Source of the DNA: Alphaproteobacteria bacterium
Lineage (GTDB): Bacteria > Pseudomonadota > Alphaproteobacteria > ATCC43930 > CGMCC-115725
DNA: 38,792 nt
Reading direction: 5' to 3'
Assembly (NCBI GenBank): GCA_030042035.1
Contig: JASIAN010000290.1
Coordinates: 1 to 38,792, forward strand
Below are positions 27,294-36,474 of the stretch, piece by piece. The notes below the pieces were generated by a model. It had not been told where the DNA came from and searched no databases. It worked only from the letters and a program-made list of their open reading frames with translations. Position 1 is the first letter of the stretch, and each line of letters starts with the position of its first letter. The translations under genes and the position numbers were made by a program.

Positions 27294-28491
27294 CCTCTTC
27301 GGCGGCCGGCACGGTCTTCACCTCATGCGCCTGGAGCCGCGGCAAGACCTCGCGCGCAAAGCGCTCGATCTGGTTCATGAACAGATCGTGCGGCAGACAG
27401 CCGCGGTTCATCGCCAATTGCACCTGATTGGCGCCGGCGCTCTCGCACGCGTCGATGATGCGCTGGGCCACCTCGTCCGCTGTGCCCATCGGCATCGTCT
27501 CGGCCTGCTCTTCGAGCTGCGCCATCGTCAGGTTGCGGAATTCCGAGCGCAGATTGGCCGCGGCGCGCAGATTTTCCGGCCGCACGTAATCGGTCGAAGA
27601 TTGCGTTGTGTAGCCCGATTCGCGCTGCTTCTCGGTCTCGATGAAATTGCCGTGGCTGAACAGGGTGCGGTTGAAATAGAGGATATGCGGCCCGTATTCC
27701 TTAAGCGCCTGCTTTTTCGAGTCGGCGACATAGGCGGTGATGCCGAGCGACAGGTGGCCCGGGGTGACGCGGTGGCCGGCCTGCGCCAAGCATTTTGCAT
27801 AATAGCGGATGATGTCGTCGCGCAAGCCGCGATGGCGCCCGAGACCGGGCGTGATCGGCAGGTTGTGCCGGGCGGCGAACTCGATCGATTCCTTGCTGCC
27901 GACGATCGGCATCCAGATCGGCGGATGCGGCTGCTGCACCGGGCGCGGCCACAGCGCAACGTCGTGAAACGACCAGAATTTGCCCTCGTAATTGAAGACT
28001 TCCTCGGTCCACGCGCGCGTCACGATGTCGTAGGCTTCCTCAAAGCGCGCCCGCGATTCCGAGAGCGGCACATTGTGCACCTGGTATTCCCTGAGGATGC
28101 CGCGGGCAAAACCGGAAATGAGCCGGCCTTTCGACAGGCAATCGATCATCGCCAGTTCTTCGGCCAGCCGCAGCGGATTGTGCAGCGGCAACAGGTTGCC
28201 GTAGATCAGGAGTTTCAGGTTCTTCGTGCGCTGCGCCGCCGAGGCCGCCATCAAATTGGGGCTGTTCATGAGGCCATAGGGCGAGCAGTGATGCTCGTTG
28301 AAGCCGACCCCGTCATAGCCGAATTTGTCGAGCGCCTCCCACGCGTCGAGGTGCTCCTCATAGGTGCGCATCGCAATGTCGCGATCGAAATAGCGCCTGG
28401 CGAGCGGGTAGGGCAGCTCCTGCGATCCCGCCGCCTTCAGATGATCGAGATTGGCGTCGTAGGCCAAGAGGTCGAAGACAAAAACCTTCAT
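27283..28491 (-). CDS. LLM class flavin-dependent oxidoreductase
   Basis: MKVFVFDLLAYDANLDHLKAAGSQELPYPLARRYFDRDIAMRTYEEHLDAWEALDKFGYDGVGFNEHHCSPYGLMNSPNLMAA...; luciferase-like family motifs (EHH, WMPIVGSKESIEFAARHN). Confidence 0.92.
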   Translation of the reverse strand: MKVFVFDLLAYDANLDHLKAAGSQELPYPLARRYFDRDIAMRTYEEHLDAWEALDKFGYDGVGFNEHHCSPYGLMNSPNLMAASAAQRTKNLKLLIYGNLLPLHNPLRLAEELAMIDCLSKGRLISGFARGILREYQVHNVPLSESRARFEEAYDIVTRAWTEEVFNYEGKFWSFHDVALWPRPVQQPHPPIWMPIVGSKESIEFAARHNLPITPGLGRHRGLRDDIIRYYAKCLAQAGHRVTPGHLSLGITAYVADSKKQALKEYGPHILYFNRTLFSHGNFIETEKQRESGYTTQSSTDYVRPENLRAAANLRSEFRNLTMAQLEEQAETMPMGTADEVAQRIIDACESAGANQVQLAMNRGCLPHDLFMNQIERFAREVLPRLQAHEVKTVPAAEEVMA

Positions 28492-29846
28492 GATGTCAGC
28501 TCCGTAATCGCCAGATGCGGGAGTTGCCCGGCGCGCACCTTCAAGAGCGCCGTCGCGATCGCGGCGATCATAGCGAACAGGCAGGCGCCGAGGAAAATAT
28601 GCAGCGGCGCGACGCCGCTCTTCAACAGCCAGCCGCCGAGCAGCGGCGCGACGATGCCGCCGAGCCGGCCGACGCCCAAGGCCCAGCCGATGCCGCTGGC
28701 GCGCATGCGCGCCGGGTAAAGCGCACCGCACGCCGCATTGGCGCCGGTCTGGCTGCCGATGATCGTCATGCCGGCGAGGAAGATCGTCGCCAGCAGGATC
28801 GCATAAGGCAGCGCCACCAGCGCGATCAGCGCGATGAATACGCCACCGGCGACGTAATGCGCCGCGAGCGCCCGCTGCGCCCCGAACCGGTCGATCGCAA
28901 AGCCGAGATAGAGCACCGCCGCGATGCCGCCGAAATCCCGGAGGCTCGACGCGAACACCGCACCGGCCGGCGTCATGCCGATCAGATGCAGCACCTCCGG
29001 CAGCCAGAAGCCGAACAGGTACAGGTTCAGCAGGCTGCAGAAAAAGATGATCCACAACAGGATCGTCGACACCGCGTAGCCCTCGCCGAACAGCATCACG
29101 ATCGGGTTGCCGCGGGCAACATCGACCGTATTGGGGTCGAGCGATCCCGGCGCGATGTCGAGCCGCGCGAGGAGCGCCTGGTGGCGCGGCGCAAGGTTGC
29201 TGCGCGCTGCCAGAAAACGCGGCGACTCTGGCAAAAACATCGCCATGATGACGAGCAGCGCGAGTGGAAAGAAGCCGCCGATGATGAAGATGATCGGCCA
29301 GCCGAAACCCTGATGCAGCAACAGCGCCACGATCTGGCCGCCGACAAAGCCGCCGGTCGGGGCGCCGGTGAAACAGATCATAATCATCGTCGCGCGCAGC
29401 CGTTGCGGCGTGTAGTCGCCGGTCAGCGCCACCGTTCCGGCAAACGTGCCGGCAATGCCGAAGCCGGTGAAAAACCGGCAGGCCGCCAGGTACGTTAGCG
29501 AGGCGGCAGCGGCGGTCGCGAGCGAGGCCAGCCCGAAGATCGCGATGCTGGCAAGCAGCAGCGGCTTGCGGCCAAAGCGGTCGGCCAGCGGGCTGGCGAC
29601 CAGCGCCCCCGCCATGATGCCGATATTCGAGAAGGCGAAGGCAAAGGTGAACGCCGGCCCGCTCATGTGCCAGGCCTGGGTCAGCGACGGCACCGCCCAG
29701 CCGATCGCGCCGATGTCATAGCCGTCGCACATCTGGATCAGAAAGCAGATCGCCACGACGGCGATCTGCAAACTGCCGACCCGCTGGTTTTCTAGCGCGT
29801 GCTCGGTCACGGACGAATGTGCTGTCTGCACACGGCTCTCCCGCAA
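28488..29846 (-). CDS. MFS transporter, aromatic acid:H+ symporter (AAHS) type, copy 1
   Basis: 452 aa; LIQMCDGYDIGAIGWAVPSLTQAW, SPLADRFGRKPLLL, GDYTPQRLRATMIMICFTGAPTGGFVGG; ATGA-type overlap with LLM gene. Confidence 0.92.
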   Translation of the reverse strand: MRESRVQTAHSSVTEHALENQRVGSLQIAVVAICFLIQMCDGYDIGAIGWAVPSLTQAWHMSGPAFTFAFAFSNIGIMAGALVASPLADRFGRKPLLLASIAIFGLASLATAAAASLTYLAACRFFTGFGIAGTFAGTVALTGDYTPQRLRATMIMICFTGAPTGGFVGGQIVALLLHQGFGWPIIFIIGGFFPLALLVIMAMFLPESPRFLAARSNLAPRHQALLARLDIAPGSLDPNTVDVARGNPIVMLFGEGYAVSTILLWIIFFCSLLNLYLFGFWLPEVLHLIGMTPAGAVFASSLRDFGGIAAVLYLGFAIDRFGAQRALAAHYVAGGVFIALIALVALPYAILLATIFLAGMTIIGSQTGANAACGALYPARMRASGIGWALGVGRLGGIVAPLLGGWLLKSGVAPLHIFLGACLFAMIAAIATALLKVRAGQLPHLAITELTS

Positions 29847-29880
29847 ATGTGTCCGCGTCGAGCGGCGCAGACCCGCAATT

Positions 29881-31221
29881 CTACGACGCCGCCTCCGTCG
29901 CCGCGAGCGGCGCGGTGCGTTTGGTGCCGATCCCCAACAGCGCGGTGCACGCCGCCGCGATCACCGCGAAGATGACGGCGCTGAGGAAGACGTGCCGCGG
30001 CGCCAGGCCGTGCGACAGCAGGAACCCGCCGAGCGGCGCCGCCGCGATGCCGCCAAGCCGCCCGACGCCCAGCGCCCAGCCGATGCCGCTGGTGCGCATG
30101 CGCGCCGGATAGATCGCGCCGCACGTCGCGTTCGAGCCGGTCTGGCTGCCAATGACCGTCGCCCCGGACAGGAAGACGATCAGCAGCAGCACAAGGTAGG
30201 GCATCGACGCCAAGGCCAACAGCGCGATGAACACGATGCCGAGCGCAAAATTGGCGGCCAACGCGCGCTGCGGACCAAAGCGGTCGATCAGGTAGCCGAG
30301 GTAGAACACGGCGGCGATCGCGCCGAGCGTCAGGAGGCTCGTCGCAAACACCGCCTCGGCCGGCGTCATGCCGGTCAGGTGCAGGATTTCCGGCAGCCAG
30401 AACACGAACAGAAACAGGTTCAAGAGGCTGCAGAAGAAGATGATCCACAACAGGATCGTGCGCAGCGCATACCCTTCGCCGAACAGCATCTTGATCGGGC
30501 TGCCGGCCGGCAGATCGACGGCATGCGCGACGCCGGTGTGCTCGATGTCGAGCCGCTGCAAGAGCGCCCGGTGGCGCGGCGCGAGGTCGCTCCGGGCGGC
30601 GAGGAAGCGCGGCGATTCCGGCAGCCAGATGGCCATGACCACGACCAGGACGAGCGGGAAGACGCCGCCGATGATGAAGATGATCGGCCAGCTGAAGCCG
30701 AGATGCAGCAGGTATGAGACGATGAGCCCACCGACAAAGCCGCCGAGCGGCGCGCCGGTAAACGTCACCATGATCAAAGTCGCGCGCAGCCGCGCCGGCG
30801 AATAGTCGCCGGTCAGCGCGGTCGTGCCGGTAAACCCGCCGGCGATGCCGGCGCCGGTAAAGAACCGCGTTACCGCAAGAAAGCCGATCGACGGCGAGAA
30901 GGCGCTCGCCAGCGAGGCGATGCCGAACAGCCCGATGCTGCCCATCAGCAAGGGCTTGCGGCCAAAGCGGTCGCCGAGCGGCCCGGAGATCAGGGCGCCG
31001 ACCAGAATGCCGACATTCGACCACAGGAACACCATGGCAAAGGCCGCCGGCTGCATGTGCCAGACATGGGTCAGCGACGGTACCGACCAGCCGATTGAGC
31101 CGACATCGTAGCCGTCACACATCTGCACCAGCGTACAGATCACGATAACCAGCAACTGCAGCGAACCGAGCCGCTGGTTCTCAAGTGCATGTTCGGCCGC
31201 CGATACCGAAGGCTCCACCAT
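29881..31221 (-). CDS. MFS transporter, aromatic acid:H+ symporter (AAHS) type, copy 2
   Basis: From MVEPSVSAAEHALENQRLGSLQLLVIVICTLVQMCDGYDVGSIGWSVPSLTHVWHM; obvious paralog of 28488..29846. Confidence 0.92.
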   Translation of the reverse strand: MVEPSVSAAEHALENQRLGSLQLLVIVICTLVQMCDGYDVGSIGWSVPSLTHVWHMQPAAFAMVFLWSNVGILVGALISGPLGDRFGRKPLLMGSIGLFGIASLASAFSPSIGFLAVTRFFTGAGIAGGFTGTTALTGDYSPARLRATLIMVTFTGAPLGGFVGGLIVSYLLHLGFSWPIIFIIGGVFPLVLVVVMAIWLPESPRFLAARSDLAPRHRALLQRLDIEHTGVAHAVDLPAGSPIKMLFGEGYALRTILLWIIFFCSLLNLFLFVFWLPEILHLTGMTPAEAVFATSLLTLGAIAAVFYLGYLIDRFGPQRALAANFALGIVFIALLALASMPYLVLLLIVFLSGATVIGSQTGSNATCGAIYPARMRTSGIGWALGVGRLGGIAAAPLGGFLLSHGLAPRHVFLSAVIFAVIAAACTALLGIGTKRTAPLAATEAAS

Positions 31222-31348
31222 TTCCTCTCTCCTGCCGACCAGGCGTCGTGCGCGCCCGCTTGGCGCCGATCTTGTTTTCCAATGTGTTGCATTTCGCCGT
31301 CGGGTGCGCAAGCCTGCGATCGGCCGCATCTGGCCCCGGAAGCCTGCG

Positions 31349-32476
31349 ATGACCCAGCGCCCGCCCGCCGAAATCGGCATGCCATTGGACGAGGTCGACA
31401 CCCCCGCCCTCGTCATCGATCTCGACGCATTCGAGCGCAATCTCGAGCGCCTCGCCGACCGCGTGCGCGACACCGGCGTTCGCCTCAGGCCGCATGCCAA
31501 GACGCACAAATGCCCGGTCATCGCGCTGCTGCAGATCGCGCGGGGAGCGGTCGGGGTCTGCGTGCAGAAGGTCGGCGAGGCCGAGGCGATGGTCTACGGC
31601 GGCGTCAAGGATGTGCTGGTCACCAATGAAATCGTCGGCCGCCCGAAATTGCGCCGCCTGATGGCGCTGGCGCACGTCGCGCAGGTCAGCGTCTGCGTCG
31701 ACGATCCGTTGCAGATCGCCGATCTCGACACCGCCGCCGCGGAGGCCGGCGTCAAGCGCCTGCCGGTCCTTGTCGAGATCAACATGGGCGGCAACCGCTG
31801 CGGCGTCGAGCCGGGCGCGCCGGCGCTCGAACTCGCGCGCCGCATCGGCGACTCGCGATACCTCGCGTTTGGCGGCCTCCAGGCCTATCATGGCTCGGCC
31901 CAGCATCTGCGCGGCTGGAACGAGCGGCGCGCGGCGATCGCCGGCGCCGCGCAGAAGGCGGCCGAAACCCGCGACCTCCTCGCCGCCAACGGGATTGCCT
32001 GCGGCACGATCACGGGGGCCGGCACCGGCACGTTCGAATTCGAGGCGGGAAGCGGCGTCTATACCGAGTTGCAATGCGGCTCCTACATCTTCATGGACGC
32101 CGATTACGGCCGCAATCTCGATGCGGGCGGCCAGCCCACCCGCGCCTTCGAGCCGTCGCTCTTCGTGTGGGCGACCGTCATGAGCCGGCCGGCCGAGGAG
32201 CGCGCGATCGTCGATGCCGGCCTCAAGGCGTTGGCCTTCGATTCCGGCCCGCCCTTGGTGTGGGACGAGCCGGCGGCGAGTTACGAGCGCGCCTCCGACG
32301 AGCACGGGCGCCTCGGCATCACGGCGGCGACCAATCGGCTGAAGCTCGGCGACAAGGTAAAGCTCGTGCCCGGCCACTGCGACCCGACCGTCAACCTCTA
32401 CGACTGGTACGTCGCGGTGCGCGGCGAGCGCGTCGAAGCGATCTGGCCGATCGCCGCGCGGGGGGCGCTGTACTAG
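31349..32476 (+). CDS. DSD1-family PLP-dependent aldolase (D-threonine / 3-hydroxyaspartate aldolase-like)
   Basis: MTQRPPAEIGMPLDEVDTPALVIDLDAFERNLERLADRVRDTGVRLRPHAKTHKCPVIALLQIARGAVGVCVQKVGEAEAMVYGGVKDVLVTNEIVG...GAGTGTFEFEAGSGVYTELQCGSYIFMDADYG...KLVPGHCDPTVNLYDWYV. Confidence 0.92.
   Translation: MTQRPPAEIGMPLDEVDTPALVIDLDAFERNLERLADRVRDTGVRLRPHAKTHKCPVIALLQIARGAVGVCVQKVGEAEAMVYGGVKDVLVTNEIVGRPKLRRLMALAHVAQVSVCVDDPLQIADLDTAAAEAGVKRLPVLVEINMGGNRCGVEPGAPALELARRIGDSRYLAFGGLQAYHGSAQHLRGWNERRAAIAGAAQKAAETRDLLAANGIACGTITGAGTGTFEFEAGSGVYTELQCGSYIFMDADYGRNLDAGGQPTRAFEPSLFVWATVMSRPAEERAIVDAGLKALAFDSGPPLVWDEPAASYERASDEHGRLGITAATNRLKLGDKVKLVPGHCDPTVNLYDWYVAVRGERVEAIWPIAARGALY
32418..32474 (+). repeat. 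57-bp direct repeat, copy 1 (3' end of the DSD1 aldolase ORF)
   Basis: tgcgcggcgagcgcgtcgaagcgatctggccgatcGccgcgcggggggcgctgtact; matches 33306..33362 at 56 of 57 positions. Confidence 0.97.
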
Positions 32477-32533
32477 CGGTGCGGCGGGGTGATTGTGACG
32501 GTGTGACTTCTGACGGTAAGGTCGCGGCGTACC

Positions 32534-32956
32534 ATGCTGGACAACTTTTTGCGGAGTCTTGCCTCGCTGCGCCTTACCGGCGGAATCTTTACAAAGACCA
32601 TATACCTGCTGATAGTGCTCGCATTTTCCGTCACTGTCATCGTTGCGGTCCTGCGTATCTGGTGGATAGCGCTGATCCTCATGATACTCTTGTTCGGGTT
32701 GGTGTTTTACGCAATGCGACGTTTATTCGATTTCACCGATAAATACCCCTTCGCCGCTGTAATGGAGGGTCCGGAGCTGCTGCGGCTGGAGGAGATACGA
32801 CAAGGTCAGAAGGGACAGGAAGATTTGCCACTATCGCCTCCAACAATCGAACATGAAGCGCCGCCAATTCCAGAAAACGAAATCACCACTCCTGACGCGC
32901 AACCGCAGCTGAGTATTGAGATCGATCAGGGTTCTCCCAAAGACCAGGAACTTTAG
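32534..32956 (+). CDS. Hypothetical 2-TM membrane protein with Pro/Glu-rich cytoplasmic tail
   Basis: 140 aa; hydrophobic IFTKTIYLLIVLAFSVTVIVAVLRIWWIALILMILLFGLVFYAM, then RRLFDFTDKYPFAAVMEGPELLRLEEIRQGQKG and tail PPTIEHEAPPIPENEITT. Confidence 0.75.
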   Translation: MLDNFLRSLASLRLTGGIFTKTIYLLIVLAFSVTVIVAVLRIWWIALILMILLFGLVFYAMRRLFDFTDKYPFAAVMEGPELLRLEEIRQGQKGQEDLPLSPPTIEHEAPPIPENEITTPDAQPQLSIEIDQGSPKDQEL

Positions 32957-32957
32957 A

Positions 32958-33260
32958 ATGTCCGCAGCCGAATTCTACACCATCTATATCGATCGGGATC
33001 CAGACGTGGCTTACGACGATGTGAAGAAAGTAATGGATCTCGCGCTCCATTGGTACAGAATAACATCGAGATATTGGATTGTTTATACCACAGGCGATTC
33101 GGAGAAGTGGTATGGACGACTGAAAAAATTTGTTACGAATTCCGGTAACCTCTTTATTTGTAGGCTCGACATAGCGGAGCGCCAAGGCTGGATGAGCGAA
33201 GACTTCTGGAATTGGCTCCGCGAGCGCGAGCGGTCACGGGAAGCCCGCCAGATCTCATAA
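32958..33260 (+). CDS. Hypothetical ~100 aa protein, possibly Cas2/SinR-like ferredoxin fold
   Basis: MSAAEFYTIYIDRDPDVAYDDVKKVMDLALHWYRITSRYWIVYTTGDSEKWYGRLKKFVTNSGNLFICRLDIAERQGWMSEDFWNWLRERER; the sWIV...s...y..L......LF...L.....W....WL layout is reminiscent of SinR/Cas2-like small proteins. Confidence 0.65.
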   Translation: MSAAEFYTIYIDRDPDVAYDDVKKVMDLALHWYRITSRYWIVYTTGDSEKWYGRLKKFVTNSGNLFICRLDIAERQGWMSEDFWNWLRERERSREARQIS

Positions 33261-33305
33261 TGAAGGGGAAAGAAAGAAAACAAGCGGTGTTGACTTCTTG
33301 CGGCA

Positions 33306-33362
33306 TGCGCGGCGAGCGCGTCGAAGCGATCTGGCCGATCACCGCGCGGGGGGCGCTGTACT
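33306..33362 (+). repeat. 57-bp direct repeat, copy 2 (orphan 3' end of aldolase gene)
   Basis: atgcgcggcgagcg...ctgtactga still reads M-RGERVEAIWPITARGALY-stop, versus VRGERVEAIWPIAARGALY-stop in copy 1. Confidence 0.97.
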
Positions 33363-33384: not shown

Positions 33385-34284
33385 ATGCTCGAGTTGCGAC
33401 AGCTGCATCCGACCTTGGCCCGCGAAGTCAGGGGCCTGCGCTTGTGGGAGCCGCTTGACGGCAGCACGCTCGCCGAGCTGCGCGCGCTTTATGCGCAGTA
33501 TGGCGTCGTCGTGTTTCGCCGCCAGGCGCTGAGCGAAGCGGAGCTTTCCGCGTTCTGCGCGCTGTTCGGGGCGCTGGAGCGCACGGTGCGCGGCGACTGG
33601 GCGTCGCCCGCGACGCCCGAGGTGACGGTGCTCTCCAATCTGAGAGACGGGCTCGGCCGGCCGATCGGCGGGCTCGGCGACGGCGAATTGCAATGGCATT
33701 CCGACCAGTCGTACATGCTGGAGCCGGCGACCGGCGCGGCGCTCTATGCGCTCGAACTGCCGCAAGCGGGCGGCGCGACATTCTGGGTCGATCTGCGCGC
33801 CGCCTATGGGGGCCTGCCGCGCCGGCTGCGGGCGGCGGTCGCCGGCAAGCGCGGCATCTTCGATTATACAAAGCGGCTCGGCGGTTACGGCCGCGACGCC
33901 GACCGGCAGATTTCCGAAGAGGCGCGGCGCCTGACGCCGCCCGTCACGCACGCGCTGGTGCGCGCCCATCCGGAGACCGGCGACCGCTCGCTCTATCTCG
34001 ATACGACGACGACAGTCGGCATCGACTACATGGATACGGCCTCGGGCCTCGCGCTGCTCGACGAGATTTACGGCTGCGCGACGAGCGACGAATTCGTCTA
34101 CGCCCACCAATGGCAGGTCGGCGATGTCGTGTTGTGGGACAATGGCTATACGATGCACCGCCGCACCGCCTTCGACCCCGCCGCGCGGCGCCTCATGAAA
34201 CGGATGACGATGCGGCTCGACCGCCGTCGCCACGTGATGCCCGACGGCCGGCTCGCCCAGTCGGAGATCGGCATGCCGATCTGA
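33385..34284 (+). CDS. TauD/TfdA-family Fe(II)/2-oxoglutarate-dependent dioxygenase
   Basis: MLELRQLHPTLAREVRGLRLWEPLDGSTLAELRALYAQYGVVVFRRQALS..., LQWHSDQSYM (HxD), LWDNGYTMHRRTAFDPAARRLMKRMTMR (distal His/Arg). Confidence 0.9.
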   Translation: MLELRQLHPTLAREVRGLRLWEPLDGSTLAELRALYAQYGVVVFRRQALSEAELSAFCALFGALERTVRGDWASPATPEVTVLSNLRDGLGRPIGGLGDGELQWHSDQSYMLEPATGAALYALELPQAGGATFWVDLRAAYGGLPRRLRAAVAGKRGIFDYTKRLGGYGRDADRQISEEARRLTPPVTHALVRAHPETGDRSLYLDTTTTVGIDYMDTASGLALLDEIYGCATSDEFVYAHQWQVGDVVLWDNGYTMHRRTAFDPAARRLMKRMTMRLDRRRHVMPDGRLAQSEIGMPI

Positions 34285-34378: not shown

Positions 34379-35530
34379 ATGAAGGTCGGGATCGCGCTCA
34401 ACATGCTGTGCCAGCCGGGCCGCTCGGACGCCTCGGTCGTCGGCGAGCATCTGGCATTGGGCGACCTCGCCGAGCCGCTCGGCTTCGATTCGCTGTTTGC
34501 GCTCGAACACCATTTCACCGGCTATGCGATGTCGCCCGCGCCGACAGAGCTCCTCGCCTATTTCGCCGGCCGCACCCGCCGCATCCATCTCGGCACCGCG
34601 GTCATCGTCTTGCCGTGGCACGATCCGGTGCGGGTTGCCGAACAGATCGCGCTGTTGGATGTATTGTGCGGCGGGCGGTGCCTCTTCGGCTTTGGCCGCG
34701 GCGCCGCCAGCGTCGAGTACGAGGGCTTCCGTATTCCGATGGGCGAGGCACGGCCGCGCTTTGTCGAGGTGGCAAAGATCATCGTTGCGGCCCTCGCGAG
34801 CGACAGCTTCGACTATGACGGCGAGTTCTTTCACATCCCGCGCACGGCGATCCGGCCGCGGCCGATCTCGCATCCCGAGCGACGCTTTTATGCCTCGGCG
34901 GTCAGCCCTGATTCGGCCGAGATCATGGCTCGGCTCGGCTTCGGCGTGTTGATGGTCATGCAGAACGAATGGCCGAAAGCGGCGGAAAGCATCATGGAAT
35001 ACCGCCGCATCGCGACCGCCGCCGGGCACCGGCCGCGGCCGCCCATTATCCTGACCAATGTGTGCTGCGCCGACAGCCGCAGCGAGGCGCACGACCGCGC
35101 CGTCCGCTATCTCGGCGAGAAATGGCAGTCGATCGACGACCACTACCATTTCTCCGACGGCCATCTCGCGACGGTCAAAGGCTACGAGAGCTACGGCAAG
35201 ATGGCCAAGACCTACGCCAAGATCAGCGACAGCGCCGAGCAGCGGCAGAAGGCGACCGATTTTTATGTGAAGATCCAAATCGTCGGGACGCCGCGTGATT
35301 GCCTCGAACAGATCGGCGAATTGCAGCGATTGACGGGCCTCGACCATCTCGTCACCGAATTCTCGTTTGGCGCGATGCCGCACAACGAGGCCGAAGTCAA
35401 CATGCGCCTGTTCGCCGACCGCGTACTGCCGATCCTGCAGCGCGACCCGGCCTTTGCCGGCGGCGGTGCGCCCGATCTCGCGCCGCGCCCGCCAGAGGCG
35501 GTGCGGGAGAATCTGTTCGCCCCGGCATAA
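34379..35530 (+). CDS. LLM class flavin-dependent oxidoreductase
   Basis: MKVGIALNMLCQPGRSDASVVGEHLALGDLAEPLGFDSLFALEHHFTGYAMSPAPTELLAYFAGRTRRIHLGTAVIVLPWHDPVRVAEQIALLDVLCGGRCLFGFGRG. Confidence 0.92.
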   Translation: MKVGIALNMLCQPGRSDASVVGEHLALGDLAEPLGFDSLFALEHHFTGYAMSPAPTELLAYFAGRTRRIHLGTAVIVLPWHDPVRVAEQIALLDVLCGGRCLFGFGRGAASVEYEGFRIPMGEARPRFVEVAKIIVAALASDSFDYDGEFFHIPRTAIRPRPISHPERRFYASAVSPDSAEIMARLGFGVLMVMQNEWPKAAESIMEYRRIATAAGHRPRPPIILTNVCCADSRSEAHDRAVRYLGEKWQSIDDHYHFSDGHLATVKGYESYGKMAKTYAKISDSAEQRQKATDFYVKIQIVGTPRDCLEQIGELQRLTGLDHLVTEFSFGAMPHNEAEVNMRLFADRVLPILQRDPAFAGGGAPDLAPRPPEAVRENLFAPA

Positions 35531-35550
35531 AGGATGCTGGCGGCCGGCGC

Positions 35551-35690
35551 CCCCTCACGCTGTCCCTCTCCCCGTTTACGGGGAGAGGGAACCGTGTTGG
35601 AAGCACACGAAAACCGGTTGATCGCGTTGCTGTGGCGGCGCCGCAATTCTCCCTCGCCCCGCGCAGCGGGGAGAGGGCCGGGGTGAGGGG
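35551..35690. repeat. Intergenic palindromic repeat (family D, CCCTCTCCCC...GGGGAGAGGG type)
   Basis: cccctcac...TCCCTCTCCCCgtttacGGGGAGAGGGA (35563-35590) and CCCTCgCCCCgcgcagcGGGGAGAGGG (35651-35677)...gtgagggg; outer ends cccctcac/gtgagggg are also complementary. Confidence 0.8.
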
Positions 35691-36474
35691 CAATGGCGCC
35701 GGCGAGGCGTTTCTCGCCGATACGCCGGTGTTGCGCGGCCACGCCGGCACGCAGCCGGATTTGTACCTCGCTTGGAACGCAGCGGCGCGCGCCGCTGCCG
35801 TCATCGATGTCGTTGTGCATCTGCACGGGTTTTCGCAGCAAGGCGGTGCGATGCCGCTCGCCGAAAAGGTCGGGAAGAGCGGCCTCACCCTCGCCGGTCG
35901 CGCGCGCCCGACGCTGGCGCTGATGCCGCGCGGCAACTGGATCCGTCATACCTGGTACGATTTTCCGGCACTCTTCGACGGCGGCCTCGACCGTCTCGTC
36001 GAGTACGCCGTCGCGCATTTCGGCGACGGCCGCGGCCTCGCGGTCGATCGGCTGATCGTGACGGCACATTCCGGCGGCGGCATGGCGGCGATCGACGCCG
36101 TTGCCGGCGCCGGCCGGCCGCCCGATGAGGTGCACATCTTCGATGGGCTTTACGGCCGCGACCCGGCGCAGGGCGACCCGCTCGGCGGCATCGACATCAT
36201 GGATCGCTGGCTCGCGGCGCGCCTTACTGCCGAGCCGGCGCGCCCCGGCGCGCTGCGCGTCGTCTATATCGAGCGGCAGACCGGTGAGTTCTCTCGCGCG
36301 GTCGAGTGCCGCATCGCGGCGCGCCTCGCGGCGCTCGAACCCGGCCTCGCGGCTGCCATTGCGCCGCGCTACCGGGTCGAGCGGTCGGGCGTGCCGCATG
36401 CCTATGTCGCGGCGGTGTGCGGTCCGGTGCTGCTCGCCGATCCCTCCGCCGATATCGACTGGTCGCAGGTGTGA
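35683..36474 (+). CDS. Alpha/beta-hydrolase-like hypothetical protein
   Basis: Frame of ORF 35299..36474; body [17 protein letters not shown]...[22 protein letters not shown]...[12 protein letters not shown]. Start uncertain (GTG 35683 or GTG 35728). Confidence 0.65.

Follow-up and report, generated by a model that had tools for sequence, protein, structure and literature searches.

The window analysed here, a stretch of 38,792 nucleotides that makes up contig 57 of a draft alphaproteobacterial genome (3.8 Mb in 351 contigs), contains an aldolase gene whose 3' end occurs a second time downstream, with two small genes in between. The locus is present once in the genome and comprises the following features:

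31349-32476, forward strand: DSD1-like PLP aldolase (Ala_racemase_N, PF01168, E 4e-22; D-ser_dehydrat, PF14031, E 4e-25), the anchor gene, whose 3' end forms the junction
32418-32474, forward strand: repeat copy 1, the functional 3' end of the aldolase, with an Ala codon, GCC (IAARG)
32475-32533, forward strand: leader between the aldolase and orf1, holding a CGGTGTGACTTCT stretch with a near-match before copy 2
32534-32956, forward strand: orf1, 140 aa, with two hydrophobic stretches at residues 14-66 and then a proline-rich soluble tail
32958-33260, forward strand: orf2, 100 aa, matching PHROG_1090 (E 4e-8)
33306-33362, forward strand: repeat copy 2, a putatively displaced aldolase 3' end, with a Thr codon, ACC (ITARG)
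33385-34284, forward strand: tauD (PF02668, E 1e-58), following copy 2

An earlier note on this DNA had described a 57-bp duplication of the aldolase 3' end with one mismatch, and a repeat finder recovered exactly these coordinates as a direct repeat of 57 nt (98% identity, one mismatch, start-to-start spacing 888). The second-longest repeat family of the region measures 34 nt at 65-71% identity. Both copies end with the first base of a stop codon, TAG at copy 1 and TGA at copy 2, and approximately 20 bp separate copy 2 from tauD. Two small reading frames do lie between the repeats, as the note had it; they are co-directional and separated from each other by one base, and the intervening DNA is indeed lower in GC (0.46-0.52, compared to about 0.68 in the surroundings). 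Third codon positions follow suit, with GC3 values of 0.59 and 0.58 for the two genes of the module, 0.90 for the aldolase and 0.86 for tauD.

To place the repeat in its genomic context, 41 contigs (373 kb) of the window genome were scanned for repeats of at least 25 bp and at least 80% identity lying 150-12000 bp apart. One other similar pair was obtained, a Walker-B segment common to two adjacent ABC ATPases, which is explained by these neighbours being paralogues. The repeat-bracketed insert at the aldolase is a real and uncommon feature. The inner ends of the cassette are not significantly alike, given that the near-match of the CGGTGTGACTTCT stretch before copy 2 is equalled by 2.6% of random pairs. 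No tRNA or known RNA was found as an insertion target, and a promoter and terminator scan gave no excess over shuffled sequences. Elsewhere in the window, two adjacent minus-strand MFS transporter genes at 28488-31230 are apparent paralogues, and this tandem is kept in relative G001. Positions 35530-35700, apparently between a second LLM-type gene and the next gene, carry palindromic repeats of the CTCTCCCC/GGGGAGAG type that look like intergenic repeats; a motif resembling them occurs in locus L035 near 1430-1480.

The orf1 protein has no family match above its cut-off, and the hydrophobicity of its sequence predicts a two-helix membrane protein. For orf2, no Pfam match and no curated family were obtained, and the matching PHROG_1090 is of unknown function. 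An AlphaFold2 model of orf2 (mean pLDDT 83, pTM 0.68) displays a ferredoxin-like fold, for which the top solved-structure matches are Cas2c, Cas2, and BPSL1038. Foldseek assigned a probability of 1.00 to both Cas2c 7f84_A and 7vxr_B, while the best E-value is 2.8e-3, with none reaching 0.001, identities are 17-20%, and TM-scores are about 0.5. BPSL1038 is a Cas2/VapD-like nuclease (PDB 7vxr; PMC10491678), and the model predicts that orf2 shares this Cas2/VapD-type ferredoxin fold. In contrast to Cas2, neither Cas1 nor a CRISPR array adjoins orf2, the nuclease activity of which is putative, and a distant orf2 relative compared with CRISPR_Cas2 gave only E 0.04. The PADLOC anti-phage defence models matched neither orf1 nor orf2, nor the orf2 of the second carrier described below (G017). 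Given that non-synonymous divergence between the window genome (G000) and G017 is 0.18-0.20 for orf1 and orf2 with synonymous divergence saturated for both, the two genes are under purifying selection. From fold, topology, and layout one might guess that the module is perhaps a toxin or defence pair.

The module is rare. Among 39 family genomes, the orf1-orf2 pair has one further carrier, G017, which belongs to another genus; no other close relative of orf2 was found in this set, and none of the seven same-genus genomes has orf2. The two carriers are both draft assemblies (G017 is metagenome-assembled), and their comparison is one between genera. No further copy was found in the window genome itself. 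The 39 family and 43 order genomes together yielded only G017 and a 29% relative, a conserved-peptide-pattern search of GTDB species genomes matched G017 alone, 385 class genomes contained distant orf2 relatives only, and among 399 phylum genomes the window alone matched. Phages and viral contigs gave nothing, and plasmids gave orf2 matches of 25-28%, from Vibrio only. In genome G025 (L051:4977-5682), a two-helix membrane gene and an orf2-like gene (29%, weak) lie between pepA and holC. These two genes directly adjoin each other in five genus mates, making the pair a clear insertion relative to an empty site. The membrane gene looks unrelated to orf1, and a 20-bp similarity sought as a target duplication at this insert is not significant (5% of random pairs). 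Genome G378 holds a comparable pair of a membrane protein and an orf2-like gene.

The aldolase is more widespread than the module, with orthologues in ten family genomes. Nine relatives carry it module-free, and eight of these have no second 3' end, G029 being the exception. Within the genus, gene order is partly conserved up to the aldolase (flavin-dependent LLM enzyme, MFS transporters, aldolase), and the DNA 3' of it differs from genome to genome; the anchor gene is conserved in relatives and the right junction is variable. The earlier note had proposed an alignment with relatives lacking the insert: same-genus relatives without the module exist, but an empty site with the aldolase next to tauD was found in no relative examined, tauD lying elsewhere.

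In G017, an orthologous aldolase is directly followed by orf1 and then orf2, as in the window, at amino acid identities to the window of 71% (orf1) and 72% (orf2), and with a module GC3 that is also about 0.6. The upstream neighbours of this aldolase differ. Approximately 20 bp after orf2 lies CCGATCACCACCCGCGTCGCGGGGCATTGA, a 30-bp remnant of an aldolase 3' end, degenerate and in register with the stop codon. Scored with a weight matrix built from the aldolase ends of nine other relatives, with the window and G017 left out, this remnant reaches 28.1 bits, while the second-best site in 9.7 kb reaches 6.2 bits and the best chance site at any locus or its reverse strand about 12 bits. The G017 module is thus also bracketed by aldolase ends. 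The earlier note had suggested looking for the module in other contexts; in the genomes searched it turned up at the same gene, with an aldolase 3' end on both sides. A freely mobile compact module is not supported, since the sole close relative found occupies the same gene and no other context turned up.

G029, which lacks the module, contains an intact aldolase, then a 3.9-kb insert with a sensor kinase, and then a 193-bp second aldolase end (85% identity). Beyond this end lie further small genes and a 95-bp third aldolase fragment, part of which is duplicated along with a DUF433-type gene. Taken as a whole, this region (L048:2200-8260, 3' of the aldolase) holds the sensor kinase, DUF433-type and PIN-like small genes, and at least three aldolase fragments, which differ in age, with part of the region tandemly duplicated. 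The aldolase of G029 looks mosaic, its 87% identity to that of G005 being confined to the last 188 bp. Contigs break within the aldolase in both G017 (C223/C293) and G029 (C445/C368), where the contig ends overlap exactly over 110 and 137 bp, and these breaks may represent strain variation at the locus.

The one codon that distinguishes the two copies of the repeat offers a hint as to which is older. In both carriers, copy 1 has Ala and copy 2 has Thr; Thr is also found in eight of the nine module-free relatives, the ninth having Val. This pattern suggests that copy 2 is the old resident end and that copy 1 came in together with orf1-orf2. The Ala/Thr difference concerns a single codon, and the last 168 bp of the aldolase contain no sites shared exclusively by the window genome and G017; a donor close to the resident aldolase would show no visible tract.

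We consider it about an even chance that the locus arose by homology-anchored illegitimate recombination at the aldolase 3' end, with the old end displaced downstream; the recombination route, the donor, and the direction are all inferred. The incoming DNA would have consisted of a donor aldolase 3' end together with orf1-orf2. Homology to the aldolase would have anchored its left side, keeping the gene whole, while its right side would have been joined by chance, over a short stretch of homology or none, at a point 57 bp short of the resident gene's end, shifting the resident's old 3' end downstream to just before tauD. Repeated events at one anchor could then account for the same site being occupied in another genus and for the stack of fragments in G029. 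Several lines of evidence favour recombination at the aldolase end: G017 has the module behind its orthologous aldolase and followed by a remnant of its own, G029 shows a second and a third fragment with different inserts, and synteny is conserved up to the aldolase and variable after it. The Thr of copy 2 and the Ala of copy 1 in both carriers, the differing lengths of the right-hand fragments beside a complete gene on the left, the mosaic appearance of the G029 aldolase, and the GC3 of about 0.6 in a host at 0.9 also favour this reading. Counting against it, the 98% identity of the window copies means that the donor aldolase must have nearly equalled that of the resident. A search for a wider donor tract found none, the Ala/Thr difference is confined to one codon, and the module has two carriers, both in draft assemblies, which likewise weighs against it.

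Similar arrangements have been described. Displaced 3' genes in the immunity-gene arrays of the Vibrio cholerae T6SS have been attributed to homology-facilitated illegitimate recombination (PMC5361080), and displaced 3' ends in Rhs loci, as cited there, to the same process. Homology-anchored recombination of this type predicts an intact left gene, a variable right scar, and stacking on repetition. As in the T6SS arrays, new DNA at the aldolase lies beside a conserved anchor with what looks like old 3' sequence moved downstream, neither an integrase nor a fixed site is involved, and fragments can stack, here in G029. In contrast to these arrays, the aldolase that serves as anchor is an intact gene for a metabolic enzyme rather than an effector gene, and the putatively displaced piece is a non-functional gene end. 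Rhs C-terminal displacement loci, to the extent that they are covered in PMC5361080, likewise combine a constant gene with orphaned 3' ends downstream, but at the aldolase the C-terminus is regenerated unchanged and not swapped for a new domain.

The main rival to homology-anchored recombination, which we regard as unlikely, is that repair or replication duplicated the target as the module went in. Either template switching during replication or a break leaving long overhangs at the aldolase 3' end would have doubled 57 bp, both copies being resident and the Ala/Thr difference a later mutation. Variable repeat lengths and near-identical copies would follow without a donor aldolase. However, 57-193 bp is long for such a route, and it leaves unexplained both why another genus carries this module at the equivalent gene end and why Ala recurs in copy 1 and Thr in copy 2 in both carriers.

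Integrative elements that enter the 3' ends of protein-coding genes, such as prophages at icd, encode an integrase and use a fixed att core. A non-autonomous element of this kind, with the aldolase 3' end as attB, the repeats as attL and attR, and a tyrosine recombinase acting in trans, would share with them the duplicated target end and the regenerated C-terminus, and it would account for the same target in two genera. We nevertheless judge it improbable. Neither an integrase nor a fixed att core is seen at the window or at the occupied sites of relatives: in agreement with the earlier note, which saw no recombinase, the repeats enclose no genes other than orf1 and orf2, and neither of these matches a recombinase family. 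No identical core was found across the occupied sites, where the downstream repeats measure 57 bp (window), 30 bp (G017), and 193 bp (G029) and differ in their left boundary, whereas on the left the gene is complete in every case. These differing scar lengths and the missing recombinase make a fixed att site unlikely, and the element would also have to be reconciled with inner ends lacking significant similarity and with the failure to find the module at another site in the genomes searched.

Still more improbable is a single ancient insertion in the ancestor of the family, inherited vertically and lost from most lineages, with gene conversion keeping the window repeat alike. Non-synonymous divergence between G000 and G017 is equal for the module genes (0.18-0.20) and the aldolase (0.21), which speaks for this history, but five same-genus genomes in which the aldolase is assembled, and four of the genus of G017, would all have to have lost the module cleanly, and a single old insertion sits poorly with a module GC3 remaining at about 0.6 in both hosts and with the different genes upstream of the G017 aldolase. 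An assembly chimera of strain variants is very improbable, for although G017 is metagenome-assembled, the window genome is a 351-contig draft, and contig breaks fall within the aldolase of both G017 and G029, the order aldolase-orf1-orf2-3' end remnant occurs in two independently assembled genomes and the copies in the window are told apart by one base and by their stop codon.

The AT-rich two-gene module is a recent acquisition, and the occupied sites suggest that DNA has joined here repeatedly by partial homology and not via a dedicated mobile element. Of the earlier proposal that a module integrated where a coding gene ends and regenerated its C-terminus, the acquisition at this 3' end, the intact C-terminus, the missing recombinase, and the absence from same-genus relatives are supported, whereas free mobility is not. 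Genome variation is mostly ascribed to integrases, transposases, or integrons. In at least three members of the family, by contrast, the aldolase 3' end acts like a recurrent capture point that works without a recombinase. We tentatively propose, as a possibility that is somewhat doubtful at present, that it is a standing capture site of this kind, at which successive acquisitions are anchored in the gene and each one turns the gene end that preceded it into a dated scar. If so, stacked fragments would give the order and age of acquisitions, and the locus would let homology-anchored capture be read in a natural setting other than toxin loci, with low-GC inserts flanked by duplicated gene 3' ends as the signature by which to search for others.
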